Shown in pieces: positions 6,469 to 64,000 of a stretch of DNA of 64,000 nt (its first letter is position 1; every line of letters begins with the position of its first letter). The notes under the pieces are model-generated. The model was not told the DNA's origin. It saw only the letters and a list, made by a program, of their open reading frames with translations, and made no database searches. The stretch comes from a virus. Location of the stretch: positions 1-64,000 of IMG/VR virus record IMGVR_UViG_3300026334_000001; one strand, written 5' to 3'. A program made the translations under genes and the position numbers.

Positions 6469-7407
6469 ATGACATATTTCTATGATTTAGAAAAAACAAA
6501 CGAGATTCTCTTCAAAGCAAAGATGGTAAGTTCCAATGTGGGATTAGATATTATAAATACTAATTACATTGGAACTTCTTCTATGTATACAAATGAATTT
6601 ATTAGAATTAATCATCTAATGAATGCAGTTGAATATAGGAAGTTATATGATTTAGGAGATATAAGTTTTCAAAAACTAATAGCACAGTTAGAGAATTCAT
6701 TAGCAATTTCTATTAAGTTAGATAGTTATAATACACTTTACGGTTCTATAAATAGTGGAAATACTATTTATAATTTTGGCGGTATACAACCTACTAATGG
6801 AGTAAATGGAGTTGGTATAGTTAGTATTACAGATCTTGGAGGATCAATGAAGATTCTTCTTAGTGATGGGAGTCAATATATAATTAATATACCAGCAGGT
6901 CCAGCAGGAGCAAATGGTACAAATGGAGCAGATGGTCATAGTATAACTTTAACTAGTAGTTCTTATACAACTCTTGTTACTGGAAATACGCAAGTTACTC
7001 TTACTTTTTCTGATAGTAGTACTGCTGTATTTGTAGTACAAAAAGGATCAAAAGGAGATACTGGAACAAATGGTACTAATGGTACTAATGGAACCAACGG
7101 TAATAAGATTTATAAAGGTGCTACTATACCTATTGGAGCATTAGGTCTTGAAGGAGATGTATATATTCAAGATAATGGTGATTTTTATGAGAAGATAAGT
7201 GGAACTTGGATATTAAAGTTTAATATAATTGGTCCTGTAGGACCAGCAGGTCCAGATGGTCCAGCTGGAGTAAATGGAATTAATGGAACTAACGGTTTAG
7301 ATAGTACAGTTCCAGGACCCGCAGGTAGAAATGTACAAGTATTTGTACAATCTACTGCACCAACAGGGGGTACTTATTATGGTGGAGATATTTGGATAAA
7401 ACCATGA
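6469..7407 (+). CDS. Collagen-like fibre protein
   Basis: 312 residues. Residues 1-105 form a helical domain homologous to the start of the gene at 8685: both contain a SS-Y-N-F-R pattern and YRK-YD with FQKL. Gly-X-Y triplets follow in three blocks, residues about 144-157, 193-212 and 255-286, rich in GTNGTNG and GPAG. Such blocks form collagen-like triple helices and rigid trimeric fibres. The gene ends in an ATGA overlap with the beta-propeller gene. Inferred role: a trimeric head or tail fibre shaft, anchored by the shared N-terminal domain. Confidence 0.75.
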   Translation: MTYFYDLEKTNEILFKAKMVSSNVGLDIINTNYIGTSSMYTNEFIRINHLMNAVEYRKLYDLGDISFQKLIAQLENSLAISIKLDSYNTLYGSINSGNTIYNFGGIQPTNGVNGVGIVSITDLGGSMKILLSDGSQYIINIPAGPAGANGTNGADGHSITLTSSSYTTLVTGNTQVTLTFSDSSTAVFVVQKGSKGDTGTNGTNGTNGTNGNKIYKGATIPIGALGLEGDVYIQDNGDFYEKISGTWILKFNIIGPVGPAGPDGPAGVNGINGTNGLDSTVPGPAGRNVQVFVQSTAPTGGTYYGGDIWIKP

Positions 7408-8684
7408 GCGAGTTAAGAGTAAGAGATAATACAGGAAATTGGGTTAATGTATGTGATCGAGAAATTAGTTTCTTCGATCCAGTAAGTAATACATTTAAGA
7501 AATTCAAATCTGGAGATACTATTTGGGATGGTACTTCTTGGGTTACTATAACATGTCCTGTATTAACTTGGGTTGCTGGAGATTATACTTGTGAACTAAG
7601 TACAGATTTAACTATAACTGGATTTTCTGCTCCTTATTATTCGATTGTAGTAGCTGGAAAGATATATGTATCTAATTATTATAGTGGTAATCTATCTATT
7701 GTAGATAACACTAATACAATTATAGGTAATATATATTCTGGTTTTGATTATCCAACTACAGGAAGAGCATTAAGAAATATAGTAAAACATCCAACTGCTA
7801 ATAGAATTTTATCAGTTACATCAGCAGGTTCAGTTAATAGTTATATTATTACATTTGATTTAACAACTGGAACAACTCTTCCATATTTTGATATTGGATA
7901 TCAAAGAGTTAGAGAAATACAGTTAGTACCATTAACTAATTTAATGGGAATTGTTACAGATGGTGGAGGTTCAGCAAGATTCTATAATATAAATTCATTT
8001 GTAGAAGATACATCATTCACTTTATCAGTTCCAACAAATGATTGTTGGTTTATTAACTTTAATGCAACAGGATCAAAAGCTTATGTATTAAGAAGATATG
8101 GATATGTTAATATATATGATATGACAACCCATTCTTTATTAACTACATTAGATTGTTCTACAGTTCATACATCAGGAGGTAGTGTATTTTCAGAATGTCA
8201 AAGATATGCAAACAAATTATACATTACTAATAACTCTGATAATAGTGTTTATATCATTGACATGGATACTGATACAATTACTAGAAAGTTAATTGGAGCA
8301 GTACCATCATTTTCAAAAGCAATTCCAGAATTAAATAAGTTGTTTGTAAGTACAACAACTGGAACAGTTTTAGGTTATGATCTAGATACATTAGATCCTA
8401 CAGATAATATAACATTAGGAATAGGAAGTGTACCACTAGGAGATTTTGTTTACTTTGGTGGTTATTTATATGTTACTTATTTAGGTTCTCCACAAACAGG
8501 ATCTCCAGGAAATATACTTTATAGAATAGGATCTGGAGTAAGAACAGGAAAAAAATTTATATTAGATATTTGGGAGATGGCTGATGGAGTTCCTACTGGA
8601 AATACTCATGATAATTTATCAACTAATCCGAGTATAGGATTACCATACTTTCCACCAGAAACAGGTTCATTAGATTGTGTTTAA
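7404..8684 (+). CDS. YVTN-type beta-propeller fibre/receptor-binding protein
   Basis: The frame can be read from a TTG at 7392, but the ATG at 7404, in an ATGA overlap with the collagen-like gene's stop, is the better start and gives 426 residues. Repeated units of the type GKIYVSNYYSGNLSIVD, NKLYITNNSDNSVYIID and NKLFVSTTTGTVLGYD recur about every 40-60 residues; these match the YVTN/NHL-like seven-bladed beta-propeller pattern. Propellers in phage virions can bind surface glycans or proteins. Coupled translation with the collagen-like shaft suggests that the two form one fibre. Binding function is inference. Confidence 0.7.
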   Translation: MSELRVRDNTGNWVNVCDREISFFDPVSNTFKKFKSGDTIWDGTSWVTITCPVLTWVAGDYTCELSTDLTITGFSAPYYSIVVAGKIYVSNYYSGNLSIVDNTNTIIGNIYSGFDYPTTGRALRNIVKHPTANRILSVTSAGSVNSYIITFDLTTGTTLPYFDIGYQRVREIQLVPLTNLMGIVTDGGGSARFYNINSFVEDTSFTLSVPTNDCWFINFNATGSKAYVLRRYGYVNIYDMTTHSLLTTLDCSTVHTSGGSVFSECQRYANKLYITNNSDNSVYIIDMDTDTITRKLIGAVPSFSKAIPELNKLFVSTTTGTVLGYDLDTLDPTDNITLGIGSVPLGDFVYFGGYLYVTYLGSPQTGSPGNILYRIGSGVRTGKKFILDIWEMADGVPTGNTHDNLSTNPSIGLPYFPPETGSLDCV

Positions 8685-17030: not shown

Positions 17031-17344
17031 TGAATATACAACAATTTATCTTAGATCAAATCAATAATGAGAAAATATTTGTATTCATATTCGCTACAGG
17101 GTTAGGAATTCTAGCTAGAAGTGTATATGAATCTTTAGTAGGGAAAGTTCAAAAAGGTAGTTTAATACAAAGGTTAATTTTAGCAAGCTTTATTAACTTC
17201 ATATTACATCCAGTGATATTAAATTATAAGTGGATGTCAGGATGTTATCCACAAGTAATCGCATTAGGAGCTTTCTTATCAATACAGATAGCAACTTGGT
17301 TAGATAAAAAATTGTTGAATAAAATAATAAACAAATTTAAGTAA
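17030..17344 (+). CDS. Membrane protein of the lysis cluster
   Basis: 104 residues from a GTG at 17030 that overlaps the previous TAG by one base. Three hydrophobic segments are visible: residues about 15-33, 48-62 and 75-90, with a basic C-terminus. No recognised family. Tight coupling on both sides (next start overlaps the stop by one base) places it in the lysis operon, where it may be the holin or an antiholin. Confidence 0.5.
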   Translation: MNIQQFILDQINNEKIFVFIFATGLGILARSVYESLVGKVQKGSLIQRLILASFINFILHPVILNYKWMSGCYPQVIALGAFLSIQIATWLDKKLLNKIINKFK

Positions 17345-17715
17345 TGACAAAGTTAATAGTTCATTTAGTACTTCTACTAAATTTCGCATACTTAGCTCTA
17401 TTGTCTTTGCAGACAATGTTTTGTAATGATATAAAGAAGTTTAATAAACATAAGTTATTCGGAATACCATTAAGACGAAGATTGTATAGACTTTGGTTAG
17501 CTTTAAGATTTGAAAAATTTAGAGGGTTTGTTTATTTACTTGTTTCTTCTTGGATTTATACATTTGATTATTTAAATAAACTATATGAAGGAAAGGTACA
17601 AGAAGAAAATACTTATTTCTTAATAGCATTTGCTATCTTTACATCTGGTATTATTACAGCACTTAAGTCTTTAGGTTATGAACTGGAAGTCTATAAACAT
17701 ATTAAAGAAAGATGA
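17344..17715 (+). CDS. Membrane protein of the lysis cluster
   Basis: 123 residues. The N-terminal segment (LIVHLVLLLNFAYLALLSL) is a membrane helix or uncleaved signal; a second hydrophobic stretch lies near residues 60-75 and a third near 95-110. The intervening region is basic (KHKLFGIPLRRRLYRLW). Starts in a one-base overlap with the preceding stop and overlaps the spanin gene by 4 bases. Family not recognised; role in lysis inferred from the operon. Confidence 0.45.
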   Translation: MTKLIVHLVLLLNFAYLALLSLQTMFCNDIKKFNKHKLFGIPLRRRLYRLWLALRFEKFRGFVYLLVSSWIYTFDYLNKLYEGKVQEENTYFLIAFAIFTSGIITALKSLGYELEVYKHIKER

Positions 17716-28414: not shown

Positions 28415-31400
28415 ATGTCAAAGAAAAGAAGTTTACCACAAGCTCCAATAGATTATACTAATCCATCGGATGAAGATATTGCAAGAGGGTTAAAACAATA
28501 TGGAGTTAGTCCTTACTTAACGCCAGCTCGTCCAGAAAGTGCTATTGAATATGGTACAGATGTAAGTCAGTATGGAACTGGACTTATAGGAGAAAAAGGT
28601 GGTGAAGGTTTCATAACTGCTCCCGAAGAACAGTTTCAAGATATAGCTGCTCAAAATCAAGGAGCTGGTTCAATGCTCTTAAGAGGAACAGGTAGATTAC
28701 TTGGAGGAGCTGCTATGAAAACTCTTGAAGGGTTTTCTTTGTTAGGTTCTGGAGTACTAGGAGGTATATATGATGCTACTGGATTAGATCAAGCTATTGG
28801 TGGTAAAGAAATGACTTGGGATGATTATGTAGATAATCCTGTTAATAATACTTTATTCAAAGCAGAAGATTGGATGAAGAGTAAAATGCAGATTTATAAA
28901 CCAAGTGATTGGAATAGTAAGTCTTTTCTAGAACAAGTTTCTTCTGGTGCTTGGTGGGCAGATGAAGGATCAGATGCAGCTGCATTTGCTCTATCTACAT
29001 TACTTCCAGCTGGATTATTAGGAGATGCTGGTATAGGTGCTAAAATGATGGGAACTGTTGGAGAAGGTGCTGGTATGATTGATGAAGCAGGACAAGTACT
29101 TAATTCTGGAACTAAAGTAGCTAAAGCTCTTAATGGTGGAGCTAAAGCTTTAAATAAAGTATCACAAGCATTAAATTTTGGTGAAGTTGGAATGCTTAAC
29201 TTACCAAAGACAGCAGGAACAATAGATAACTTAGTTACTAATGCATTGATGACTACATCAGAAGCTTTATTTGAAGCTAGAGATACTGGTCAACAAATGA
29301 AGCAGGAAGTAGTTAAGAAGTGGAATGAAACATATCCAAATCAGAAAGTTAGTGACTTTGAAGAACTACCAGATCAAGTTAAGCAAACAGAGAAAGAAAA
29401 GATGTCTGGTAATCAGAGAGATACTTTCTTAGCTAACTTAGCAGCTCTATCATTTACTAATAAGTTTGAAACAGCATTATTAAATAAGTTTGGTTCTCAA
29501 ACTGCTAAAGCAGGTCTTAAAGCTTTGGAGGTATCAGATGAATTACTTACACCAGCAGCTAGATTAACTAAGAAAGGAATTTCAGGTTTCTTTGAAAATA
29601 CAGGTTTAAAATCTGCATTAAAAGAAGCTGCTACTGGAGCATTTATGGAAGGTATCTTAGAAGAAAATATTCAAAGTGCTATTCAAAATGTAAGTCAACA
29701 TTATAGTGGTAATGGAAAAGATAACTGGTTTTTAGATGCTTTAGATTATACAGGTGATGTTGTTAAAGGATCATTTGATAATTTATCAGATCAAGAAGCA
29801 TGGAAGTCTATTGGTTCTGGTATGGTTATTGGTGCATTAAGTGGTGTAATAGGTGGATTTAAAGAACACAGACAAGAAGTAAAAGATGCTAATCATGTTG
29901 CAGGTAGATTAAATGAAGCTACTAATAACTTCTTAAATGTAGGAAATGCTTTATACGAAAGAATTCCAGTTATTGATGAACAAGGTAATCCAACAGGAGC
30001 TACCAAAATTAAATTAGATCAAGAAGGAAATCCATTATATAATAATGAAGCTCTTAATAGATTCATGGCTAATCAAGCTATGGTTTCTTCATTAGAATCA
30101 ATTGCAGATCTTTATCAATCTACAGGAAATGAGGAGATAGCAAGTTACGTTAAGAATGAAGCTTTCTCTAAATGGGCGCAAGCACATTTAGAATCTGGAT
30201 TAGGAGAAGAAATGTATGCCAAGTTAAAGAAACTTGGAACAATGAAAGATACGGATCTTCTACAATCTAATATACCAATTACTACTGTACAAGGAGAAAA
30301 GGTATCTTCACAAGCAATAGCTAATCAATATATAGCTAAAGCTAAGGAGTTAGAAGCAGATTATAGACAAATATCTAAAACAATACCAGCTGAACAATCA
30401 GGTCGTATTGATAATGCATATCAAACTAAATCTAGATTAAGGGAATTAGGTAAACTTAAGGATGCTTTAAATTTAAAGCTAGGAGATTATCAGAATAAAA
30501 TTAGATCTGGTAATGATACAGTTGATCTTATTAATAGAAAGGTAACTCAATTAGAAGCATCTAAAGCACAATCGGAGTTCTTTGTAAATGCTAGTGGAGA
30601 AAATGCACAAGCTTATTTGAGTTCATTAGATAGACTTGAGAAAGAAATAACTCAATTAAAAGCAGATAATAAGGATATGTTACAGGATCAAGGTCATGAT
30701 GTAACTCCAGGTATTGAACCTATTCCTTATCAAACAGCTGGAATGTTTAAGTCTGATTTTCAAGATTACACTAAAACTAATGATAAACTTGCTGCTATTG
30801 AAGGTGGTTCAGCAGAATTAATGGATCATTATAATGGTGTTATTGATTATAAAAATGGCGAAGAGTTTTATAATAACTATCTAAATCAAGGAGTTGCAGG
30901 ACATAATCTTAAATCTGAACTTGAAAAAGCTGTAACTGAACAACAAGCAGTTGTAGATAGACAAGAAGAAGATCAATGGCGAGAGTTTCAAGATAATCTT
31001 AAACAAGGAGATTTCTTAGAAACTCCTACTGAACAAGGTTATGTAGCTAAAGATGCAGATGGAAATTTAACTTTTAATAATAGAATTATAACTCCAGCAG
31101 TTCTTAGAGCATTACAACCAACTAAAGTTAGTGAAGCTGATGTAGCTTTACGTAAACAAGAAGCTTTAGATAATACTCGTAGAAATCAAATGCAAGCTAG
31201 AGTAACTGGTAATCTTCAAGATATATCAGTACTTAATGATGCTATTAGACGTGGAGAAGATGGATTATTGAATAATCAAATTGAATTAGAAAAATTAATA
31301 AACAAATCAAATGGTAAAGCTAACAGCACTCAAAATCAAATTGCTAAACAAATTGAAGCAGTTAAGGGCACGATAGATGAAATTCAATCTGGATTAGATG

Positions 31401-34400
31401 TAGCTAATCAAAGAAAGAGTAATCTAGAACAAGAAACTACTAACTACCTCCAGATGTTAGAATCTGGAGATGTAGTTGGAGTAGCGGAAGTAGAAAGTGA
31501 ATTAGCAGAAGTTAATAGTCAAATAGAAGAACTTAATCATCAAATCTCCTTAATGGAGAAGTTAAAGGATGAAGGCAATAAATTCCTTTCTTTCCTAGAA
31601 GATTTATGGAAGAAAGCTTTTCCTAATAAACGTAGACAATTAGAAAAAGGTCGTCAAGAATATACTGATGTTAAAGAAGAGATTCAATTAAGTAAGCAAC
31701 AATTAAAACAACTTGATGAAAACATAGCTAATACATCTACTATTTTAACTCAACTTAATAATAGATCAACTGTTTTACAGAATGAAATAACTCAATATCA
31801 ATTAGCAGCAAGAGCATTCTCTCCTGTAATTAATACTAAAACAGAAGAAGGAGTTCAGAATAAAGCTAATCCAGTAACAGAAGATCAAGAAGGTATTACT
31901 TATAATTCAGCTAGAAATCCTGATGTTAGTGGAGCATTTACTTTTAGAACTACTGGTTTTCATGGTAACGATAAAACAGGTCTTAATCCAAAAGAATCAC
32001 AAAGAAGATGGTTTAAATGGGCAGAAAGAACACCTCTCTCGGAATTAAAGAATCTAAAATTAAGAGTTGTAACTATTAATGATGAAACTTATGGAACAGG
32101 GAAGATTAACGACCTTTTTCGGGACGAACCTATGGAGTACAAGACAGAACACGATCTTAAAGTTGTGGTTGTTGACTCAAGGGGAAATGCGATTGACTAT
32201 ATGGGAGGACCAGTTCATACGAATCTCTTATTGCCAAAGGATAATGTAAGTGATTATAAATATGGAGATGGTTCATCTATGTTTATTAATAAGACTGGTA
32301 TGAGTGATGCTGCTATTAAAGAGAAGAATGATACATATAAGAAATTCACTCAATCTTTAAAAGATGCCAAAGAACCAGTATATCTAGAGATTACAGGAAA
32401 ATCTAATGGAGTTAAAGCTAGAGGAGAAAGAACTTCTATTAGAGAAGTTTTTGGAACTGAAGATATTAATCTTCAAGTTGTAACTAGTGAAACTATTACA
32501 ACTGCTGATGGTACTTCAATAAGTGCAAGACCTGGAACTGTTATTACTATAGTTGATGGAAGAGTTACACCATTATTGACTAGAAAATTAAGTTCAGAAG
32601 AGGGCAGTAAAGTATTAGATTTACTTAAAGATTATTCTAAATTAAGAGAGAATAAAAAAGCTAATGCTAAAGAACTTAAAGATGGATTGAGTCAGTTAAA
32701 ATCAATTGTCTTCATGGGAGATACAGCAGATCCAGCTACTTCTATGGGATTTGTGACAGGAGAGAATAATTTTAAGTTTGGAAACGCTCTTATTAGTATT
32801 AAGGAATTACAGTCAGGAGAATTCGATCCACAAATTAGAGCTTTCTTAGAAAATAAATACCATCAAGTTAGTAATGATTGGTTGAAATCAAAAGCATCAT
32901 ATGAAGATGTATTTGGTAAAAAATGGAATTCTTACAAAGATTATTTAATTGGAGAAAGAGATAATCCATTAGATGCTCCACTTACTAGTGATTTAGTTCC
33001 TGTTACTGATGATATTAATAAACCATCATTCTATAGTACATATGTAACTTTTGGTACAGATATTAAAAATTCACCTAAAGCTGAAACTAAATCAACTAAA
33101 ACTAACGTATCTATTCCTGTATCAACTGTTAATGAAGAAATTCAAAATAGAGATGAACAAGTAGTTCCAGTTAAGAAAAGTATCTTTAAAAAGAAACAAG
33201 CCTCTCCTGTAGTTGAAACTAAATCAACTAATCAAGTAACTGTTATAACTGAAGATACTTTATTAGAAGAACCATCTTATGAACCAACATTTGAACCTCC
33301 TACTGGAACAGTTCAAAAGTTTGCAGATGTTATTAAAGGAAAACCTGTAACTGAAGTAAAAGCTCCAGAAGCAGAATTAACTGATGATGATATTGAAGCT
33401 ATGATTGAAGCTTCATTTACTCCTAAGAAGAAAGAAGAAGTTGTAATGGGAGTTGTTCCTGTAGATCCATCTGATTTATTTTTAGATGCTACAAGAATAT
33501 CAGAAAATTATGTTAAAGAAGATACAGGTAAAGCACAAGCATGGTTTAAACAAAATATAGGTGAAAATGTACCATTCCATTTAGTTAATGGTCTAGTTAA
33601 TCAAAGAGCTTTCGGAATGTTTAGTAAACATGGAGAAGTTCTTATATCTGATTTAGCAGTTGAAGGTACAGTATATCATGAATCATTCCATGCAGTTACT
33701 CAATTAGCTTTAGGTAAAGATGAACGTAAAGCTTTATATGATAATTATAGAAAAACTAGAAATGTAGATCTTTCAGATAGAGATGTAGAAGAAGAACTTG
33801 CAGAAGAGTTTAGAACTTACATGCTATCTCAAGGAGAATATAAAATACCAGAGGCTAATTTCTTTAAGAGATTATGGAATGCTATTAAGAAAGTAATTGG
33901 TATTCCACAAGATAAAATTGAAGAGCTATATAAAAATATATCTACTGGAAAGTTTAAAGGTTTAACAGCTAAAGAACTTGATGGTGGTAATATATATTCA
34001 TCAATATTATCAGATTATTCAGTTTCATTTGCTAAAGAACTGATGGAAGGAATGACGACATACTTTATGAGGAATCTATTTAAAAATGGATTCTCTGTAA
34101 AGGATATAGTAAAATTTCAAGAAGATACTTTAAGTAAAGATAGTGCAGATAGAATAGCAGGTACATATAATAATATTCTATCAAATATTGCTTTCATGTG
34201 GTCAGATGAAAAACTGGCTGGAATGGATAAAGATACTGCACAAGAGTTTAAAGATTCAAGAAACTTTGTAACAGCTAACTGGAAAGGTATTGTTCAAGAA
34301 CATAATACCTATATGCAGAGATTTGGTATCAATATGAGTTTTGAAGATACTATTTATAGTTCTGTTACTGAAGAAGATAGAAATAAAGATACATTAGGTA

Positions 34401-37400
34401 TCATTAATAACTTTGAATTCTCTACTAGAGATGGAATGCCTAATTCAGTTAAATTATTATTTGCTGCATTACCTTCATTAGATAAAGATGGTAAAGTGGC
34501 AACTAATGCAATTGGATTACATGGTATATCAGATTATACAGCTAATCAAAGATTACTACAAAATAAGTTATCTAATGTAAGTGACTTTAAAGAACAAGTT
34601 TCTATTATTAAAGATCTAATGAAAGTTAGACCTGAATTCAAGTATTTATTACAATATCTTGGAGTACAAGATGATAATGAAACACCATCAACAGCGGGAT
34701 CAGATATATTTGATCTTCAAATGGCATTTAGACAGCAGTTTGATAAAGCTAAATACAGTCCACAAATTATCATTTATGATGAAGGAACTATTAAAACTGT
34801 AGATGCTGATGATGATCGTATTGTAAATGCTATATCTACTGAATGGCAGAATAATTTGAAAGCTAAATTATCTACTGCTAATATACCATCAATTCAAACT
34901 AATGATTTAGGACAATTGGTATATAATGCAGATTATCTAGTTAATAAGTATTTCAAACCGTCTACAGTTAAAAAAGGGAGATTAGTACTTAAAGATGCTG
35001 GAAAAGAATCCCTCCTTTCTTTCTATAAGGATTTAGGTATTGAATTTTCAGATAAAGATAATATTGATTATGGTAAGTTAGCAGATAAATCTTACTTCAT
35101 AATGAATTCAATTCAATCGCATCCAGAAGAATTGAATTTATTTGCTAAACCACATAACTTAAGAGGTGACTTGGCATCACTTCTAGAAGAAGAGGTGAAG
35201 TCTAGAGATGATCTTTCTGACAATCAACATATTAATCCTGAAGGAAAGACAGTTTATAGTATTAGTTTAAATAACTATCTTTCACAAACAGTAAATGTAT
35301 TAAATAGAGTTATTCCAGATCATCTTAAATGGAATGAGAAAGATAGAATTGGTAATCCATTTGTAAGGAATTCTCAATGGGGAAAGAAATTTGCAGCTGG
35401 AAATAAGATGAAATTAGTAATGTTAGAAGGTGCTGGTATTGCTGAGGCTGGAACAGATGCTAAAATGGCTGATGATCTTACTAGAGGTGATACTGGATCA
35501 GTACAGTTTCAGAAAGTGTTAGATGGAGTTTATCCCCTTCTACAACCAGGAGATAAGAAACTTGCATATGGATTTAGCTTTGGAGAAGAGATATCTCCTA
35601 AAATGAAGTATGAAGAAATGGTATCTCAATTAAAAGGGTATCTATCTGATGAGTTATTATCATCATGGATGTTGAATGTAGAAGGTATTGGAGCTGATGT
35701 TAAGAACTATAAATCATTAGGAAAAGATCTTCGTTCATTTAAAGGAGCTATTACTGGTTATGAACAATTAATTAAAAAGAAAGTATCTAGACAAACTATA
35801 CTTAATCATATTGAGAATTTTGTAAATAGTGATGAAGTTACTAAACAAGTAGAAAAATGGTTTGATAATAAAGTTGATAAAAATATAGAAGAACTAAAAA
35901 ATTATCAAACTATTAAAGAATCTAAATTAGGGGTATTTACATTATTAGGTATTAGTGAAGAAACTGCTGAAAAATATGCAGGTAAGAAAAACAATCTTTC
36001 TACACAAGAGATGAAAGATTTAGTTAAGTTTTTTACTTATGGTTCATTGCATGGTAATATAGAACAAACTAAATTATTTACAGGAGATACAGCATTCTAT
36101 GAATTTACATCTAAGAAAGTTGACTTCTTTAAACGTGTATCTGGTTTAATTGGTACTGGTAAAACAGCAGCTATAGGAGAACAAATTAATAATTGGTTTA
36201 ATACTAATTTTAAACAACAATATATAGATAGAGATGGTAAAATAGTTGATGGTAAAGTTAGTGATGGTAAGATTAATACTGTAGTTTTTAATGATGTTAA
36301 AATAGCAGCAGAAAACTATAATGGTTTATTATCTACTATGGATTCATTAGGATATGATAAAGAATATTCTAGAGGATTAATGAAAGCTTATTCTGAATCA
36401 GCTGATGAAGCAGATGCTCAAGGTTATATTACAATGCCAGAATATAGAGAATTCCTTAAAAGAACTGGAGATTGGAAAGATAGTCATGAAGTTGCTTATC
36501 AAAAAATGTTGAAAGGAGATAGATTAACTAAAGAAGATATATATAGATTCCCACCATTAAAGCCACAGTATTTTGGTAATCAACAATATGGAGAATTATA
36601 TGTACCTACATTCTATAAATTTTCAGTAATGCCATTAATACCTCAAGTTATTAGTGATATTAAAGCTAATGGATTGAAAGATCTAATGGATCAAATGCAT
36701 GAACAACAAATAGGTATTGCTACATTTACTTCTGGTAATAAAGTAGGAGTTGTAAATACACATGACTTCTATGATGAAAATGGAAACGTTAAACAACAAA
36801 CTTATACTCCTCAAGTTGTAGGATATGAAGGAATGAAAATTCAGTTAGATATTTCTCCAGAAGTTAAAGATAAAGTTACATTTGGTACTCAATTCCGTAA
36901 GTTGGTATTAATGAATCTAAAAGGAAATTCATTAACAATTGATGGAAAGAAAGTAGATGGTAATGAGCTAATCAAAAAATATAGCGGTCTTATTGATAAG
37001 TTAATACAGATTGATACTGAAAATTTAACTAAGAAATTAGGTATTGAGAAAAAAGGAGATAAATATAAGATCAATAATGTTAAGTATCTTAAAGAAACTC
37101 TTGTAGAAGAATCGGTAAGAAGGGGAGTTGCTTCTAATCTAATTGAAGGAATTGAACAAGTATTTGATGCTGATAAACCATACATGGACTTATTAGTAAC
37201 CAGAAACAAAATGGAGAATATCTTAATGTCAATGGTCAATAATAACTTGATCAAACAGAAGATGTTCGGGGATATGAAAGTTCAAGGAGCTTCAACAGGA
37301 TTTGAGCAAACAGCAAGAAAGCAAAGTTCTGTTAATGATCAAGCATGGGCATCTAATTTAGAAGCTCTTAAGTTTTATGATTTTAAAGATGGTAAAACAC

Positions 37401-39964
37401 AAGCAATGGAAGTATATTTACCTCATTACTTTAAGGAGTATTTTGATAAGAATATAGATATTAATGATTTACCAGAAGAGTTAAAGAACTTTGTAGGTTT
37501 TAGGATTCCAACACAAGGGTTGAATTCAATTGAAGTAATCAAGATCAAAGGATTTCTTCCACAAGAAGCTGGTAATATCATCATTACTCCATCAGAGATT
37601 GTTACAAAAGCAGGTTCCGATTATGATATTGATAAATTGACAGTATTCTTCCCTAACTATAAAGTAAACTATGATATGAAGCAAATGAGAAATGATTTTG
37701 CTAGATATGTAGTAGGTACTGGAGGAGAAGTTAGTGGAGAAGAATTAACTAATTTAAAATCAATTATTGATAAAGGTAAAGAAGAAGATTCTGATGACAT
37801 ACTTTTAGGAACTCTTCTAGGAGAAAAGGATAGGAATGTATATCAACAGTTTAAGGAGTTCCAGAAAGAGATGAAACAAGATTATGTTTCTGGAGTTGAT
37901 TATATTAAATATGAAGAAGGAACTAACGATAAGAAAGCTATTCAGAATGAGATTATCAAAATGGCTTCTGACATGGTATCTGCTCCAGAAAACTTTGCTG
38001 GTTTGATGACTCCCAATTCTACAGATATTATTAAAGGTGCTGCTAATGAAGTAAGAAAATTAAAAGGATTAGATCAGAAAGAAGCTGCTACAATTGATAA
38101 TTTAACTGACTGGTCTTATAACTTAGATGTTAGAAGTAAATACCTATTAGGTAAAGCTGGTATTGGTCATACTGCATTACAAAACGTACATCATGTTCTT
38201 AGTCAAATTGCAGATCTTACAGTTAGCAATCCTGATGTTAAAATTGAATTAGATCATAATCTTAAAGATGGTAAGATATTTTTAGGAGGTATTTATGATG
38301 CTAATAATAAAACTGATAGTAAATCATATAAGACAATTCTAGATGTAATATCTGAATTTGCCAATGGTTTCTTAGACGTAGCAAAAGATCCTTTCTTAAA
38401 GGATATTAATGCAAACGTAGAAACAATTAATACTTATATGTATTTAATCAGAGCTGGAGTACCTGTTAGACAATCAGTTCTTTTCATGACACAACCAATT
38501 ATTACAGATTACTTAGAAGCATTAGAGAAAAATGATTCATTATTCTTGAAGAATGTAGAACAACAGAAATCTAAAAAACAGTTAAGAACTGAAGTTGAAG
38601 CTAAATATAAATCTACTGCTAAGATTGGAGATTATAAAGCTGCTATCAGTGAAGCTAACTTAGCTAAGTATCTTAAAGGAGATGTAGATAATGCAGTTCA
38701 ATTAAGAATACTTTCTGATTATTTTGCTTATAAAGAACAATCAGATAAATTAGGAGATCTAGTAAATGCTACATCTCAAGATACCAGAGGTACAGGTGCT
38801 TCAATGACAGAGGCTCAATTAGTTCAGAATAAATATAATGAAGTTGTTAAAGAAAAATACTTTGATAATATTCAAGAATTTATGAACCAGACCTTTCTAG
38901 GATCGTTTAAAAAATCTGTGGATTTATCTTTGTCTTTATATCAAGATTTATTCATCACCGAGCGACCAGAAGTTAAGTCATTTTTCAATCAATTAACTAT
39001 GCAGTTACCAAAAGTGATGAAACAAGATACAAGGGTGAAATTATTGAATATGATGAAGAATGATTTTATTCAATACATATTCCAAAACTCTGCATCTAGT
39101 TATAAAGATCAAAAAGGTAAGACAGTTGAAGGAGGTAAATTAGGTTATAGAACAAGAGAGTTTTTTGCTGGAACAGATTCAATTCCTTATAAAGTTGCAG
39201 AGATTAAGAGAGATAAAACTAATCCTCTTCATGATAATCTTCTTATTAATGAGTTGTATGTAATTACTGGTAATAGTAAAGAATCTACAAATGTAACTAC
39301 TGAAGGAACTAATAACTTAAAATTATTTAATAAAAGAATGCCTGTTGATGATAGTAATAGACTAACAGAAGCATGGAAGGAAATATTTGATACAGATAAA
39401 ACTTTTGGTGATACTTTATTAAAATTTAGTATATTGCAGTCTGGATTAAATAGTAGTCCAATTAGTTTCATGAACTTTGCTCCTAATGATGAATATATTA
39501 GAGTTGCAAAACAAGTGATGGAAGCTTGGTCAGATTCTCCTATGACAGCAGATTTTCTGGAGATGTACTATCAAAACAATTACAAAAGTAATGATTTAGT
39601 TCCTAATGTAAAAAGAGTGGAGGTTAGAAATGGTATTGCTAAAATTAGTGATATAAGATATACTAATTCTCCTTACATTAAAACTTGGATTAAAACTACT
39701 GCTAACAAAGGATTCTTTAGATTATTGAAGAACACTAATACACAAGTAGATAATAATACAATCTTTGAAGAAATAGATAAGAGAGGAAATGGATATCAAT
39801 TCAAAGAATTTACTACTGGAATTGGAACAATGTTAGTAGATAATAAAGCAGGTTATAATCCTAGAGTTCAAGAAAAGACTAAAGACGATTATAAAGTTAG
39901 TTATACACCTCCATTTGACACTAAAGATGTTCCTTTGGAAGAAGTAAATAAATGTGGAATATGA
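28415..39964 (+). CDS. Giant virion protein: zincin plus virion RNA polymerase
   Basis: 3849 residues. Residues 1-490 hold Gly-rich hydrophobic segments (GSGVLGG, LLPAGLLGDAGIG, GMVIGALSGVIGG) suggesting membrane contact during ejection. A long coiled-coil-rich part spans about 600-1150. HESFH at 1755-1759, followed about 35 residues later by EEELAEEF, is a canonical zinc metallopeptidase signature. DYDID at 3069-3073, preceded by a Gly-Ser loop, matches the DxDxD metal-binding loop of the two-barrel RNA polymerase carried in crAss-like virions, studied in phage phi14:2. The protein would enter the cell with the DNA and transcribe early genes. Fusion of these parts in one polypeptide is longer than most family members. 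A 14-bp motif lies at 31588-31601. Confidence 0.8.
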   Translation: MSKKRSLPQAPIDYTNPSDEDIARGLKQYGVSPYLTPARPESAIEYGTDVSQYGTGLIGEKGGEGFITAPEEQFQDIAAQNQGAGSMLLRGTGRLLGGAAMKTLEGFSLLGSGVLGGIYDATGLDQAIGGKEMTWDDYVDNPVNNTLFKAEDWMKSKMQIYKPSDWNSKSFLEQVSSGAWWADEGSDAAAFALSTLLPAGLLGDAGIGAKMMGTVGEGAGMIDEAGQVLNSGTKVAKALNGGAKALNKVSQALNFGEVGMLNLPKTAGTIDNLVTNALMTTSEALFEARDTGQQMKQEVVKKWNETYPNQKVSDFEELPDQVKQTEKEKMSGNQRDTFLANLAALSFTNKFETALLNKFGSQTAKAGLKALEVSDELLTPAARLTKKGISGFFENTGLKSALKEAATGAFMEGILEENIQSAIQNVSQHYSGNGKDNWFLDALDYTGDVVKGSFDNLSDQEAWKSIGSGMVIGALSGVIGGFKEHRQEVKDANHVAGRLNEATNNFLNVGNALYERIPVIDEQGNPTGATKIKLDQEGNPLYNNEALNRFMANQAMVSSLESIADLYQSTGNEEIASYVKNEAFSKWAQAHLESGLGEEMYAKLKKLGTMKDTDLLQSNIPITTVQGEKVSSQAIANQYIAKAKELEADYRQISKTIPAEQSGRIDNAYQTKSRLRELGKLKDALNLKLGDYQNKIRSGNDTVDLINRKVTQLEASKAQSEFFVNASGENAQAYLSSLDRLEKEITQLKADNKDMLQDQGHDVTPGIEPIPYQTAGMFKSDFQDYTKTNDKLAAIEGGSAELMDHYNGVIDYKNGEEFYNNYLNQGVAGHNLKSELEKAVTEQQAVVDRQEEDQWREFQDNLKQGDFLETPTEQGYVAKDADGNLTFNNRIITPAVLRALQPTKVSEADVALRKQEALDNTRRNQMQARVTGNLQDISVLNDAIRRGEDGLLNNQIELEKLINKSNGKANSTQNQIAKQIEAVKGTIDEIQSGLDVANQRKSNLEQETTNYLQMLESGDVVGVAEVESELAEVNSQIEELNHQISLMEKLKDEGNKFLSFLEDLWKKAFPNKRRQLEKGRQEYTDVKEEIQLSKQQLKQLDENIANTSTILTQLNNRSTVLQNEITQYQLAARAFSPVINTKTEEGVQNKANPVTEDQEGITYNSARNPDVSGAFTFRTTGFHGNDKTGLNPKESQRRWFKWAERTPLSELKNLKLRVVTINDETYGTGKINDLFRDEPMEYKTEHDLKVVVVDSRGNAIDYMGGPVHTNLLLPKDNVSDYKYGDGSSMFINKTGMSDAAIKEKNDTYKKFTQSLKDAKEPVYLEITGKSNGVKARGERTSIREVFGTEDINLQVVTSETITTADGTSISARPGTVITIVDGRVTPLLTRKLSSEEGSKVLDLLKDYSKLRENKKANAKELKDGLSQLKSIVFMGDTADPATSMGFVTGENNFKFGNALISIKELQSGEFDPQIRAFLENKYHQVSNDWLKSKASYEDVFGKKWNSYKDYLIGERDNPLDAPLTSDLVPVTDDINKPSFYSTYVTFGTDIKNSPKAETKSTKTNVSIPVSTVNEEIQNRDEQVVPVKKSIFKKKQASPVVETKSTNQVTVITEDTLLEEPSYEPTFEPPTGTVQKFADVIKGKPVTEVKAPEAELTDDDIEAMIEASFTPKKKEEVVMGVVPVDPSDLFLDATRISENYVKEDTGKAQAWFKQNIGENVPFHLVNGLVNQRAFGMFSKHGEVLISDLAVEGTVYHESFHAVTQLALGKDERKALYDNYRKTRNVDLSDRDVEEELAEEFRTYMLSQGEYKIPEANFFKRLWNAIKKVIGIPQDKIEELYKNISTGKFKGLTAKELDGGNIYSSILSDYSVSFAKELMEGMTTYFMRNLFKNGFSVKDIVKFQEDTLSKDSADRIAGTYNNILSNIAFMWSDEKLAGMDKDTAQEFKDSRNFVTANWKGIVQEHNTYMQRFGINMSFEDTIYSSVTEEDRNKDTLGIINNFEFSTRDGMPNSVKLLFAALPSLDKDGKVATNAIGLHGISDYTANQRLLQNKLSNVSDFKEQVSIIKDLMKVRPEFKYLLQYLGVQDDNETPSTAGSDIFDLQMAFRQQFDKAKYSPQIIIYDEGTIKTVDADDDRIVNAISTEWQNNLKAKLSTANIPSIQTNDLGQLVYNADYLVNKYFKPSTVKKGRLVLKDAGKESLLSFYKDLGIEFSDKDNIDYGKLADKSYFIMNSIQSHPEELNLFAKPHNLRGDLASLLEEEVKSRDDLSDNQHINPEGKTVYSISLNNYLSQTVNVLNRVIPDHLKWNEKDRIGNPFVRNSQWGKKFAAGNKMKLVMLEGAGIAEAGTDAKMADDLTRGDTGSVQFQKVLDGVYPLLQPGDKKLAYGFSFGEEISPKMKYEEMVSQLKGYLSDELLSSWMLNVEGIGADVKNYKSLGKDLRSFKGAITGYEQLIKKKVSRQTILNHIENFVNSDEVTKQVEKWFDNKVDKNIEELKNYQTIKESKLGVFTLLGISEETAEKYAGKKNNLSTQEMKDLVKFFTYGSLHGNIEQTKLFTGDTAFYEFTSKKVDFFKRVSGLIGTGKTAAIGEQINNWFNTNFKQQYIDRDGKIVDGKVSDGKINTVVFNDVKIAAENYNGLLSTMDSLGYDKEYSRGLMKAYSESADEADAQGYITMPEYREFLKRTGDWKDSHEVAYQKMLKGDRLTKEDIYRFPPLKPQYFGNQQYGELYVPTFYKFSVMPLIPQVISDIKANGLKDLMDQMHEQQIGIATFTSGNKVGVVNTHDFYDENGNVKQQTYTPQVVGYEGMKIQLDISPEVKDKVTFGTQFRKLVLMNLKGNSLTIDGKKVDGNELIKKYSGLIDKLIQIDTENLTKKLGIEKKGDKYKINNVKYLKETLVEESVRRGVASNLIEGIEQVFDADKPYMDLLVTRNKMENILMSMVNNNLIKQKMFGDMKVQGASTGFEQTARKQSSVNDQAWASNLEALKFYDFKDGKTQAMEVYLPHYFKEYFDKNIDINDLPEELKNFVGFRIPTQGLNSIEVIKIKGFLPQEAGNIIITPSEIVTKAGSDYDIDKLTVFFPNYKVNYDMKQMRNDFARYVVGTGGEVSGEELTNLKSIIDKGKEEDSDDILLGTLLGEKDRNVYQQFKEFQKEMKQDYVSGVDYIKYEEGTNDKKAIQNEIIKMASDMVSAPENFAGLMTPNSTDIIKGAANEVRKLKGLDQKEAATIDNLTDWSYNLDVRSKYLLGKAGIGHTALQNVHHVLSQIADLTVSNPDVKIELDHNLKDGKIFLGGIYDANNKTDSKSYKTILDVISEFANGFLDVAKDPFLKDINANVETINTYMYLIRAGVPVRQSVLFMTQPIITDYLEALEKNDSLFLKNVEQQKSKKQLRTEVEAKYKSTAKIGDYKAAISEANLAKYLKGDVDNAVQLRILSDYFAYKEQSDKLGDLVNATSQDTRGTGASMTEAQLVQNKYNEVVKEKYFDNIQEFMNQTFLGSFKKSVDLSLSLYQDLFITERPEVKSFFNQLTMQLPKVMKQDTRVKLLNMMKNDFIQYIFQNSASSYKDQKGKTVEGGKLGYRTREFFAGTDSIPYKVAEIKRDKTNPLHDNLLINELYVITGNSKESTNVTTEGTNNLKLFNKRMPVDDSNRLTEAWKEIFDTDKTFGDTLLKFSILQSGLNSSPISFMNFAPNDEYIRVAKQVMEAWSDSPMTADFLEMYYQNNYKSNDLVPNVKRVEVRNGIAKISDIRYTNSPYIKTWIKTTANKGFFRLLKNTNTQVDNNTIFEEIDKRGNGYQFKEFTTGIGTMLVDNKAGYNPRVQEKTKDDYKVSYTPPFDTKDVPLEEVNKCGI

Positions 39965-59777: not shown

Positions 59778-59989
59778 TATTTTGTTGTTACTAATTCAAA
59801 TCTTGGCACATTTTTCTTTGGATGTATTGCAAAGAAACCTTCTAATGGTCTTGTATATGCTTTTCCTGTATCAATATTAGCATAAATGACAACCTCTGTT
59901 TGTGTTTCTTCTGCCTCTGCAAATCCTAGTATTACATAATAACCGCCTTTAAAGTGTTTATAACATCTTTTAATTAATGGCTTCTTCAT
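59777..59989 (-). CDS. DUF1653 protein
   Basis: 70 residues, matching DUF1653: YKHFKGG at 11-17, YVILGFAEAEET at 18-29, VVIYANIDTGKAYTRPLEGFF at 33-53 (key residues Y, G, RPLEGFF). The family is a small beta-barrel domain of unknown function. It overlaps the amidoligase exon stop by 4 bases and the helicase start by 1. Confidence 0.8.
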   Translation of the reverse strand: MKKPLIKRCYKHFKGGYYVILGFAEAEETQTEVVIYANIDTGKAYTRPLEGFFAIHPKKNVPRFELVTTK

Positions 59990-60381
59990 CCTTTAATAAT
60001 TCTAGATTTGATAATACTCTGAATATCCACTTCTGCTTGCACTTCATCTGTCTTATTTAAATCACCTAGTTTCTCTTGTAGAGCTTTTAATCTACCAATA
60101 CTACTAAAAGAACCTTTTACTCTTCTTATAATTTTATTAGCATGAATAATTCTTTTAGCTAAAACTTCATAATCAAAAGACATTTCTCCTATTCTAAATT
60201 CAAATGTATTAAATTGTGAATTCAATCTTACCCAATTATGACATCTTCCTATCATTCTAGAATTATAATGACCTTTATATTCCCATGTATCTAATTCTGC
60301 TAAAATCCAATCTTCATTTTCTTCAATCCAAGAACGATCTACCTTATCAAATATATCAGTTGTATCAACATGATAATGAAT
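59986..60381 (-). CDS. Amidoligase, exon 2
   Basis: 131 codons plus stop, joined to exon 1 (61905-61597) after removal of the intron at 61596-60382. Joined residues 104-234: IHYHVD places His105 and His107 of the conserved H-x-H motif, WILAELDTWEYKGHYN follows, and EFRIGEM carries Glu164 and Arg166 of the ATP/metal site. An ATG at 60384 allows a separate reading, but that product would lack the N-terminal half of the fold and the residue before I is intron-encoded. The enzyme belongs to the COOH-NH2 ligase superfamily of the glutamine synthetase fold and forms amide bonds using ATP; the substrate is unknown. Confidence 0.75.
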   Translation of the reverse strand: MHYHVDTTDIFDKVDRSWIEENEDWILAELDTWEYKGHYNSRMIGRCHNWVRLNSQFNTFEFRIGEMSFDYEVLAKRIIHANKIIRRVKGSFSSIGRLKALQEKLGDLNKTDEVQAEVDIQSIIKSRIIKG

Positions 60382-61596
60382 CATTTTGTTATCTTAAAGG
60401 CTTTTTATCCTTTAATTCTTATACTACAAAATATCTCGTATAAGTTCGGCATATATTTTCTTCCTCTATTTTTAATATTAGTAGGAAGTGGACACTCTTG
60501 GGAGAATTATATTCTATTAACTGTAATAGGTTCATCTCCTATGCTCTACACTATTCTCCATTGTTTAGATGTAGAATTAGCACGGTATCCAAAGTATTGT
60601 TCAAATTTTATCTTTTTTCTAACTAAAAAGCATTTACTACCTTCATACAAGTATTCATATATTTCTCCTATTTTTATAGTTCTATTCCTATTATAATCAA
60701 ATCTTAATAAGAAATAATTACAAGTTTTTCCTGCATGTTCATATATCACAGGTTTTATATCAAATAGTTCTTGGAATATATTTGCTATTTGTTCCGTGAA
60801 TATTTTTGAATTAAATACAAAACTAAAATTAAAAAATATTTGAGATCCTTTATTTTTATGAAATGATACTGAACCATCTCCATCAAAATAACCCCTTATG
60901 AAATGTCTTATTAATTCTTTTGGTAATAAATTAAAATCAAAATTAAATGAATGATCGTGAGTTTTATTAGGTATAATCTTATATTTGTTAATTAGAGTAT
61001 TACAAATCCTTCTTGAATTAATCTTTAAATTAACTTGTTCTTTTCTAACCTTCACTCCTGATTGATTGTTTCTAAAAAATAGTTTTGAATTTGGACTGAT
61101 TTCTTCTTTTATTAATTTTATTACTTCCAAATCATCAACACTATTTAAAAATACTAATCTTTTACTATCTTCATTAACTCTTTCAGTTACTTCAATGCTT
61201 CCATCTGCAATAATAAATCCTAGAATATACGCTTTTTCTTCTGTATCAATATTATCAAAATAATCTTCATTATGATTATAATATTGATTTATATTCTTAA
61301 CTACTAGTTCTTCTTTTTTAATAACCCACGTAGCTTTATTATATTCTATATCTAATATTTTACAGATTTGTCCTACACAATATCCTTTTTCTAGATAATC
61401 TTTTAGCAATACAATTTTTTCATTTTCTATTCCTCTATCTGGAGGAGCAATTTTAAAATTTGAGAAATCCATAGTATATAGTATTTGTATACCACAATAT
61501 AGATATTTCTCTAGAAAAATCAAAAATTATTTATTTTGTTCACCGTTTTTGCCCAATTTTTCATATAGATTACTCTATAAGGTGGCATTCATTTCT
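60382..61596 (-). other. Group I intron (1215 nt) inside the amidoligase gene
   Basis: Exon 1 ends GTGGT (61601-61597), and its last U pairs with G of the internal guide GCCAC (61586-61582), giving a 5-bp P1 with the conserved U-G at the splice site. Bases just before the guide, ATGAAT (61592-61587), pair exactly with exon 2's first six bases ATTCAT (60381-60376) to form P10. P2 is TATAGA-GTAA-TCTATA (61579-61564) with a GNRA loop. Hairpins near the 3' end lie at 60438-60444 with 60418-60424 and at 60396-60413. The intron ends in G. Removal restores frame and joins SG to IHYH. It carries a LAGLIDADG gene. Confidence 0.85.
60546..61472 (-). CDS. LAGLIDADG homing endonuclease encoded in the group I intron
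   Basis: 308 residues from ATG at 61472; an earlier TTG at 61523 is less likely. Two LAGLIDADG motifs, LGFIIADG at 84-91 and IRGYFDGDG at 192-200, show a single-chain enzyme of two half-domains, each with its catalytic acid. Residues 22-52 look like a helix-turn-helix (DYLEKGYCVGQICKILDIEY). It would cut intron-less copies of the amidoligase gene and promote intron homing. The gene has its own start and lies between the 5' core elements and the 3' hairpins of the intron, as is usual. Confidence 0.9.
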   Translation of the reverse strand: MDFSNFKIAPPDRGIENEKIVLLKDYLEKGYCVGQICKILDIEYNKATWVIKKEELVVKNINQYYNHNEDYFDNIDTEEKAYILGFIIADGSIEVTERVNEDSKRLVFLNSVDDLEVIKLIKEEISPNSKLFFRNNQSGVKVRKEQVNLKINSRRICNTLINKYKIIPNKTHDHSFNFDFNLLPKELIRHFIRGYFDGDGSVSFHKNKGSQIFFNFSFVFNSKIFTEQIANIFQELFDIKPVIYEHAGKTCNYFLLRFDYNRNRTIKIGEIYEYLYEGSKCFLVRKKIKFEQYFGYRANSTSKQWRIV

Positions 61597-61905
61597 ACCA
61601 CTCCCTTCATTAAGAGCAGAATTTCGTTTTAATTGAGTACAGATATTAAATAAACAAATCAAACCTTTATGACCTGCTGGAATACGATATCTTTGCTCTC
61701 CTTCTCCATTATTAACATCCATTATATCTGGAATAGATGTAAAAGCTACTTCATTATAATTTTCACCTTTACTACATTCTATTTCAAATCCTGTAGAATA
61801 TGGAAGATAACTATCTGCTGCTTTAGCTAAACGATCATTTCCATGCGCTGCTAAAGCTAGAGGAGCATAATATATACACTCCTCCAGAATAGACTTTTCT
61901 TGCAT
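61597..61905 (-). CDS. Amidoligase, exon 1
   Basis: 103 codons ending in SG. GFEIE at 39-43 is the first conserved strand of phage amidoligases, with FTSIPDIMDV at 55-64, RYRIP at 72-76 and GLICLFNICTQL at 81-92. Without splicing the frame would run only 9 codons into the intron (stop at 61570), giving a truncated protein without H-x-H and EFR. The spliced protein has 234 residues. The ATG overlaps the previous stop by one base (TAATG), so it is translationally coupled to the basic protein gene. Confidence 0.75.
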
Positions 61906-62351
61906 TAGTATTCTCCGTTACGTTTTTCTCCAGTTTTAGCAACTGGTTGTGGTGCAGCTCTTTCTACAGCAAATAAAGATTTTAAAAGAGCAATATCTTC
62001 TTCAGAAACTTTACCATCTCTAATCTCTTTAGCTAGATCAGCAACTACACTAGACTTAGCTTTTTTCTCAATCTTCTCTGCTTTAACTGCACGTTTAGCT
62101 GCTTTAACTGCTGCTTTAGTTTCAACAATGATTTGTTCTTTAACTTCTTCTTTAGCAGTTGCTTCTGGAGTTAATGCTTTTACAACAGCTGCTAAACCTT
62201 TCTTAGTTCTCTTAGCATTGTATTCAGTAATCATATCCTTAAAAGGTTGAAGAGCTTCTTTACTACCTGTTTTAGTATAAACAGTTTCTCCAATGATTAC
62301 ATTTAGGTTTCTACCTATTTGTTTAAATTTAATTTCTGGTGACTTTTCCAT
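61905..62351 (-). CDS. Basic Ala/Lys-rich protein
   Basis: 148 residues. An N-terminal beta part (IKFKQIGRNLNVIIGETVY) followed by a long Ala/Lys/Glu-rich helical stretch (AKEEVKEQIIVETKAAVKAAKRAVKAEK; only key AAVKAAKRAVKAE given as pattern) and an acidic-hydrophobic helix (EEDIALLKSLF). The composition suggests a nucleic-acid-binding or amidoligase-partner tail. One-base overlap with the amidoligase gene. Family not recognised. Confidence 0.5.
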   Translation of the reverse strand: MEKSPEIKFKQIGRNLNVIIGETVYTKTGSKEALQPFKDMITEYNAKRTKKGLAAVVKALTPEATAKEEVKEQIIVETKAAVKAAKRAVKAEKIEKKAKSSVVADLAKEIRDGKVSEEDIALLKSLFAVERAAPQPVAKTGEKRNGEY

Positions 62352-62357
62352 TTTAGA

Positions 62358-64000
62358 TTAATTTGTTTGTGCAATAATTTGTTTAGCTTGTTCTAATAAC
62401 TCTTCTTCATGTGGTTGAAGTATTATATAATGCTCTGCATTTAATTTCTTCTTCTTCAACTTCATAAAGTCAATTATCAAATCTGAATTACCTTCTACAT
62501 CTCTAGAAGAAATAAGTGTCAATAACTTAAGTCCTTCCTCATATTTCAATACTTGTTTTAATGTATCTCGTATTTCTTCATCCCACCAATTATTCTCCTC
62601 CATCATTGTATAACATTCTGATAGAAATTCAGTAGTACAATATCTAGCATTACTAGTATGTCTTCCAACATAATTACTAAGTTCTGCTATTCTATCTGTA
62701 TGTTCTGCACAGATCTTACGATAAGCATAATGAGTTAACTGAATCTTATCAGTCATATTCTCTCTAATGTAATGAGCTGTTATTGTCTTAATAAAAACTT
62801 TGTTTCTATTAGATATGAATTCTTCACCTGTCATACAATTTGACTGATTTACTAAATACTTATGATTACTTTTAGCAGTTGTGAAAACCCTAATTTTATG
62901 TTTATGTAAGCCACCAACATTTCTCCAGTTACCTGCATAACTAAGAGATTTCTTTCCCGATAACATTAAAGCAATCTCCTTAATTAATTTCTTATTTTCT
63001 GGAAGATCATAGATAATAAGTTCAGATTTTACTTTATTTAAATCTAAAATTTCTTTCTCTTCTACTCCAGTACTAAAATAAGTAACATTAATTTCATTCT
63101 TGCCAAGCTTATTAGTTACTCTTCTTTCTCTTTGAGAATCTATCCACTCTTTAGGAATGTTAGTTTGCTCATAACTATGAGATTGTTCTACTAAATAATC
63201 TTGTAATACTTTTTTTACCTTTTGAAATAACTTTACTTTGTTAAGACCATTTTGCATGTATGGTGTATTAACTAAACCTAAAGCTTTATTCCATTGATTA
63301 AAAGATAAAGTACTCTTTCTTACTAATGCAAAATTCTGCAAATAGCTATTCTTTCTTGTTACTACTTCTCCTTTAATACGATATAAACTACCTCTTCCAA
63401 TATGATCACATTTGTGAACCTTAGTAGAATTCTCCTTTTTAAGTAATCTTCCATTACTATATACAGCACTCACATAAAAAGGAAAATATGGGTTGTCTGT
63501 TGGTATTTCAATACCTAAGTTTTCTAATCCTTTTAGAGAAATAGGATGTAGATCTGGAATAGCTATTTCTTTATACCATTCATAATTACTACCAGTTCTA
63601 GGATTCTTACCGTACTTCTCTTTAAATCCTATCTTCAATGATATACCTTCAGTTAATTTGATCATCCTATAAGGAGAATCTTTAAGCTTTACATATTCAC
63701 TAATAGTAGTACAAATAGCAGCATCAGATTTAGATAATTCTATTAACTCCTTTTTAGCTAACTCTATTTTATCTAGAATTAATTGTTTAGCAGTTTCATC
63801 ATATCTTAATTGCTCTCTATTTGGAGTAACCATTAGTTCTCCTATATTAAACTTAAGACCGATACCAATAGGAATTGTTTCTATACCTAAATAATTGTAA
63901 TCAATTGGATATGCTACTTTACCAAGAACTATATGAATATCATCAGAATACTTACAATCATTTCTATACTTAAAATGCTTACCTTCATAAATCTTATAAT
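62358..64000 (-). CDS. GHKL ATPase / rIIA-like protein, C-terminal part (cut by window edge)
   Basis: The frame stays open through the right edge, so the ATG at 63833 is internal; at least 547 codons are seen. The upstream part carries LGKVAYPID and FNIGELMVTPNREQLRY: the GEL-VTP-NRE pattern is typical of the second domain of GHKL-type ATPases such as phage rIIA-like and topoisomerase/MutL-related proteins. The N-terminal ATP-binding Bergerat fold would lie off the window. The remaining 400 residues are unassigned alpha/beta sequence. Confidence 0.6.
   Translation of the reverse strand, partial: YKIYEGKHFKYRNDCKYSDDIHIVLGKVAYPIDYNYLGIETIPIGIGLKFNIGELMVTPNREQLRYDETAKQLILDKIELAKKELIELSKSDAAICTTISEYVKLKDSPYRMIKLTEGISLKIGFKEKYGKNPRTGSNYEWYKEIAIPDLHPISLKGLENLGIEIPTDNPYFPFYVSAVYSNGRLLKKENSTKVHKCDHIGRGSLYRIKGEVVTRKNSYLQNFALVRKSTLSFNQWNKALGLVNTPYMQNGLNKVKLFQKVKKVLQDYLVEQSHSYEQTNIPKEWIDSQRERRVTNKLGKNEINVTYFSTGVEEKEILDLNKVKSELIIYDLPENKKLIKEIALMLSGKKSLSYAGNWRNVGGLHKHKIRVFTTAKSNHKYLVNQSNCMTGEEFISNRNKVFIKTITAHYIRENMTDKIQLTHYAYRKICAEHTDRIAELSNYVGRHTSNARYCTTEFLSECYTMMEENNWWDEEIRDTLKQVLKYEEGLKLLTLISSRDVEGNSDLIIDFMKLKKKKLNAEHYIILQPHEEELLEQAKQIIAQTN

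Follow-up and report, generated by a model that had tools for sequence, protein, structure and literature searches.

A Twort-related IA-type group I intron in an amidoligase-like gene of a crAss-like phage

The window analyzed here, 64,000 nucleotides (nt) of viral DNA (positions 1 to 64,000 of the IMG/VR virus record IMGVR_UViG_3300026334_000001), carries an amidoligase-like gene interrupted by a 1,215-nt insertion, which is almost certainly an active and mobile IA-type group I intron with kinship to the introns of phage Twort; the phage that harbors it is crAss-like. Window coordinates given below refer to minus-strand features unless stated otherwise. The intron (60382..61596) is in phase 0 and its last base is G. 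Exon 1 (61597..61905), with 309 nt a multiple of three, encodes residues 1-103 ending in NEGSG, and exon 2 (59986..60381) encodes residues 104-234 beginning with IHYHVD, both of which align with intron-less relatives. Read directly from the sequence, exon 1 ends in GAAGGGAGTGGT / GGGAGTGGT, the intron starts with AGAAATGAATGCCACC and ends with GATAACAAAATG, and exon 2 opens with ATTCATTATCAT. The joined exons give one frame of 234 amino acids (aa) with zero stops; unspliced, exon 1 is predicted to yield a 111-aa stub with its stop inside the intron.

The splice sites are marked by two short pairings. The exon 1 strand GUGGU (61597..61601) pairs with the internal guide GCCAC (61582..61586) to form P1, in which the last U makes the U.G pair at the 5' splice site. 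Adjacent to the guide in the intron lies AUGAAU (61587..61592), forming with AUUCAU at the start of exon 2 (60376..60381) a perfect P10 of six Watson-Crick pairs. P1 and P10 were both found in 5 of 2,000,000 trials with random site pairs of the window, and the terminal G and P10 seen in group I introns are both present. The initial annotation had named the intron class, both splice sites, the guide with its U-G pair, P10, the terminal G and a P2 hairpin with a GTAA loop; re-reading of the frames, coordinates and pairings returned every one of them, P2 being UAUAGA-GUAA-UCUAUA (61564..61579) with a loop of the GNRA type. From these elements we infer a splicing route in which GUGGU of the transcript would pair with the guide, a guanosine bound at P7 would attack after the U, and P10 would align exon 2; ligation of the exons directly ahead of IHYH would then release the 1,215-nt intron.

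Profile searches uncovered 16 uninterrupted related loci, 14 viral and two in genome assemblies, and in all of them a frame of 233-278 codons runs unbroken through SG-[I/H/N]HYH. The joined protein, used as a query, retrieved the intron-less relative L001 at 50% identity, and aligning the joined protein with seven of the uninterrupted relatives, a check proposed beforehand, gave 36-48% identity. G-x-E-I-E, SG-x-HYH and E-x-R-I-G are invariant in this alignment, and both exons retain the conserved residues. The earlier proposal that the two short frames are halves of one enzyme, whose joining restores the SG-IHYH segment, is borne out by these relatives, which encode a single protein read through the junction and in no case two separate proteins at this site.

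The ribozyme core was assessed by covariation counted on 12 sequences with complete cores. P3 is formed by UGGGCA (61550..61555) and UGUCCA (60489..60494) as helix 2 of the alignment, with 98.6% of cells paired, and P4 by ACGGU (61542..61546) and ACCGU (60582..60586) as helix 3. P6 (GCU/AGU) and P6a (AUUCU/AGAAU) occupy 60550..60581 (helix 4); an alternative P6 pairing, CUACA/UGUAG, was dropped because UGUAGAGC aligns with J6/7-P7 in the relatives. P7 consists of G(A)GCAUA with a bulged A (60540..60546) and UAUGCC (60448..60453); as helix 5 (100% paired) it is present in 12 of 12 sequences, columns 128-134 pairing with 236-241, and by analogy its G-C pair after the bulged A is expected to bind the guanosine. 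The hairpins P9 (CUUAUAC...GUAUAAG, 60418..60444, helix 9) and P9.1 (UUAAAGG...CCUUUAA, 60394..60415, helix 10) are likewise present, and the weakest helix of the core is P8 (CUUCCU...AGGAAG, 60460..60488), with 50.7% of cells paired in one register and a register that differs among relatives.

Over all helices, the share of paired cells is 87.1%, both partners have changed in 38 of 60 pairs, and the score for covariation is 0.465. Controls with partners slid by 1-3 columns reached 34-47% pairing and covariation scores of at most 0.152, and no shuffle attained the observed values. The window sequence served as the basis for drawing the structure, a choice that favors the window in the percentage paired but does not by itself produce the two-sided changes. 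With the endonuclease frame left out, the intron folds 3.8 standard deviations below shuffles. The covariation supports the IA-type core as a whole. Helices of the P7.1/P7.2 type between P7 and P3 (GGAG/CUCC paired in 100%, the inner helix in 91.5%) support assignment to subgroup IA (IA2-like), a call made from these helices.

Distant BLASTN matches to the 3' core were obtained in staphylococcal, Clostridioides, Bacillus, Leptolyngbya, Arcanobacterium and crAss-like phages, and these matches stop at the intron 3' end. The whole core is contiguous in many of these phages, and at least 17 phages besides this one have introns that share the catalytic core. A covariance model, R1, was built from 17 family members including the window, which as a training member scores 172 bits; in the 90-kb record this intron is the only copy that R1 finds. 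Outside the training set, R1 recovered two Twort introns, at 17063-17234 and 17331-17543 of locus L032 (33.3 bits, E 3.4e-07, and 24.3 bits, E 1.2e-04). The 16.6-17.6 kb region of L032 is what we take to be Twort orf142, a name the record itself does not give, and its introns presumably belong to class IA2. The structure of the Twort orf142-I2 ribozyme has been solved. The two Twort introns resemble the window intron in P2 with its GUAA loop and in the order of the P3-P9.1 elements, but they measure about 250 nt and carry no endonuclease, unlike the 1,215-nt element. The host gene at this Twort locus encodes a tail tube protein (PMC11878797), and a co-crystal of CYT-18 with orf142-I2 is cited in PMC4275181.

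DNA and covariance comparisons also revealed a homologous core in introns of Sextaecvirus, Rockefellervirus, Clostridioides phages, Bacillus PJN02, Leptolyngbya phages, Lak phages and the crAss-like cr111_1, which differ from the window intron in their host genes (e.g., tape measure, terminase and capsid) and in the families or positions of their endonucleases. Judged from its core, the window ribozyme is a member of a widespread Twort-like phage family. Separately, three loci with matches to this family were recorded. Relative L039, whose amidoligase gene lacks an intron, has at 7313-8559 an intron of the same family (52.9 bits, 4.5e-13) containing a GIY-YIG-like endonuclease frame and adjoining a helicase-like fragment that ends at a Walker A-like GAETG. 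The major capsid protein gene of Bajarodcaudo virus 1 lies in several pieces (L006, 2967-5763), with five R1 matches and two annotated intron-associated endonucleases. The unannotated faecal phage MT835481 (L010, 2455-4540) shows three R1 matches within 2.1 kb.

Several results weigh against the presence of an active group I intron. A test with Rfam group I models had been suggested in the initial annotation; the model RF00028 gave no match to the window at gathering or permissive thresholds, even at E 10, and none to the two relatives tested; it does match the T4 nrdB intron (35.7 bits, E 5.9e-07), and the window scores less. A second phage with the same intron at the same site was not found, the exact 3' junction being absent from the searched viral contigs, and the case is built from DNA sequence throughout. 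The T4 nrdB intron, annotated as group I, likewise falls under the RF00028 gathering score of 50, and the absence of the window at that threshold is therefore weak evidence; the gathering score is a database cut-off and not a property of the group I class.

The missing Rfam match could also be set beside the in-frame ATG directly ahead of exon 2 (60382-60384), formed by the last three intron bases, to argue for two independent genes flanking a free-standing homing endonuclease gene with no splicing at all. Such an arrangement is extremely improbable and already strongly contradicted, since the single frame crosses the junction in 16/16 relatives, the ribozyme core is conserved in both sequence and pairing, and no Shine-Dalgarno-like sequence was seen before the exon 2 ATG.

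The intron encodes a LAGLIDADG homing endonuclease of 308 aa (60546..61472, from ATG 61472), in a frame open from TTG 61523. Matches to PF14528 (4.1e-11) and phrog_4645 (3e-42), together with the motifs LGFIIADGS and IRGYFDGDGS, identify it as a double-motif LAGLIDADG protein with its acidic residues and frame intact. The frame occupies the P5 loop, and its last codons coincide with the P4 3' strand and with P6. The UAG stop of the frame falls inside the ribozyme core, where it extends over the first base of P7. We infer that the endonuclease would cut intron-less alleles at SG|IHYH, whereupon the intron would be copied in by homing. No relatives of the endonuclease were found in the viral contigs searched, and the closest one among the loci compared belongs to the UvsX/RecA-gene intron of Staphylococcus phage MR003 (32% identity, 9.6e-21). 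Since the ribozyme of that intron was not found by R1, the endonuclease and the ribozyme of the window intron probably do not share one history and came together separately.

A decayed copy that no longer splices, leaving the amidoligase effectively dead or working as two pieces, is very unlikely. A short P2 and a long L9 loop, in place of the GAAA tetraloop of several relatives, would suit decay, as would evidence on splicing that comes from the DNA level; against this, P1, P3, P4, P7, P8, P9, P9.1 and P10 are all intact, the conserved residues are kept in both exons, and the endonuclease retains its open frame and both LAGLIDADG motifs.

The identity of the host enzyme was approached through structure. 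Neither the Pfam amidoligase model PF12224 gave a sequence match to the joined protein, nor did PHROGs and Pfam searches with it return an informative match. The invariant residues follow the pattern G-x-E-x-E ... H-x-H ... E-x-R, which we take to be that of glutamine-synthetase-like ligases. Fold comparison with a predicted structure of L001 (predicted local distance difference test score, pLDDT, 80.9) gave as best match a protein without a name from the crAss-like phage cr114_1 (9.3e-11), followed by numerous phage proteins annotated as amidoligase (1.5e-06 and weaker); the best PDB matches were glutamine synthetases, weakly (2.1e-03, template modelling score, TM, 0.41). On this predicted structure the product is called amidoligase-like with a glutamine-synthetase-like fold, in line with the enzyme family originally proposed.

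The major capsid protein (phrog_11589, 5.2e-60) shares 28-29% identity with those of crAss-like phages over 89-98% of the protein, which places the phage, distantly, among the crAss-like phages (Crassvirales). The plus strand of the window also contains a single 3,849-aa frame (28415-39964), possibly a giant virion protein or an RNA polymerase as known in crAss-like phages. Group I introns with intron-encoded endonucleases including LAGLIDADG were described in crAss-like phages, the same order as the window phage, by Yutin et al. 2021 (PMC7886860), in a text without mention of amidoligase, and the window intron thus adds a member to a known class. For Bastillevirinae, the genes reported to hold introns are core genes of nucleotide and DNA metabolism (PMC11878797). 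An amidoligase gene with a group I intron was not met in the searched literature, where the single paper naming both terms assigns its intron to a DNA polymerase gene; such absence is no proof that the site is unreported, and the amidoligase appears to be a host gene not reported before.

Upstream of the amidoligase-like gene lie a gene for a K/E-rich protein (61905-62351), also found upstream in L036-L050, and a preceding gene for a GHKL-type ATPase (62358-63998), also seen in L036, L038 and L042. The order GHKL ATPase, K/E-rich protein, amidoligase is conserved in most relatives. The ATPase has 700-880 aa in relatives, several with a GGFGLGSKSP motif. In the K/E-rich protein (114-203 aa), a variable linker separates a conserved N-terminal part from a conserved extreme C-terminus. 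This tail mostly reads R-x-G-E-[Y/W/H] and was seen with variations in 14 relatives and the window (KRNGEY in the window; PRRGEY, KKHGEY, RRGGEW, RRGNEY and RPGEH in relatives). An embedded Shine-Dalgarno sequence was judged insufficient to explain this tail, as its codons vary (GGT/GGA, GAA/GAG, TAT/TAC/TGG/CAT) and so does the distance to the next start. Two loci of this cassette, L049 and L050, are filed as Bdellovibrionales and Rickettsiales assemblies and are probably misbinned phage contigs.

By analogy with Pup and PafA, the K/E-rich protein could be the substrate of the amidoligase. An extension of this analogy, which we consider rather unlikely, would make the interrupted enzyme the ligase of an unrecognized phage protein-tagging cassette, composed of the GHKL ATPase, the G-E-[Y/W/H]-tailed protein and the glutamine-synthetase-fold ligase and laid out like Pup/PafA; the Pup tail is GGE/Q. 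Were it true, the intron would sit at the H-x-H motif of that ligase. The conserved cassette to which the host gene belongs may be a protein-modification system.

The intron in the amidoligase-like gene extends the range of host genes beyond the usual ones for nucleotide metabolism and structural proteins, and its ribozyme documents a phage-wide IA-type family that is missed by the standard Rfam model. Pipelines that depend on Rfam for annotation will therefore report such genes as split or truncated, and the structure and splice-site anatomy described here may be used to correct such gene calls.
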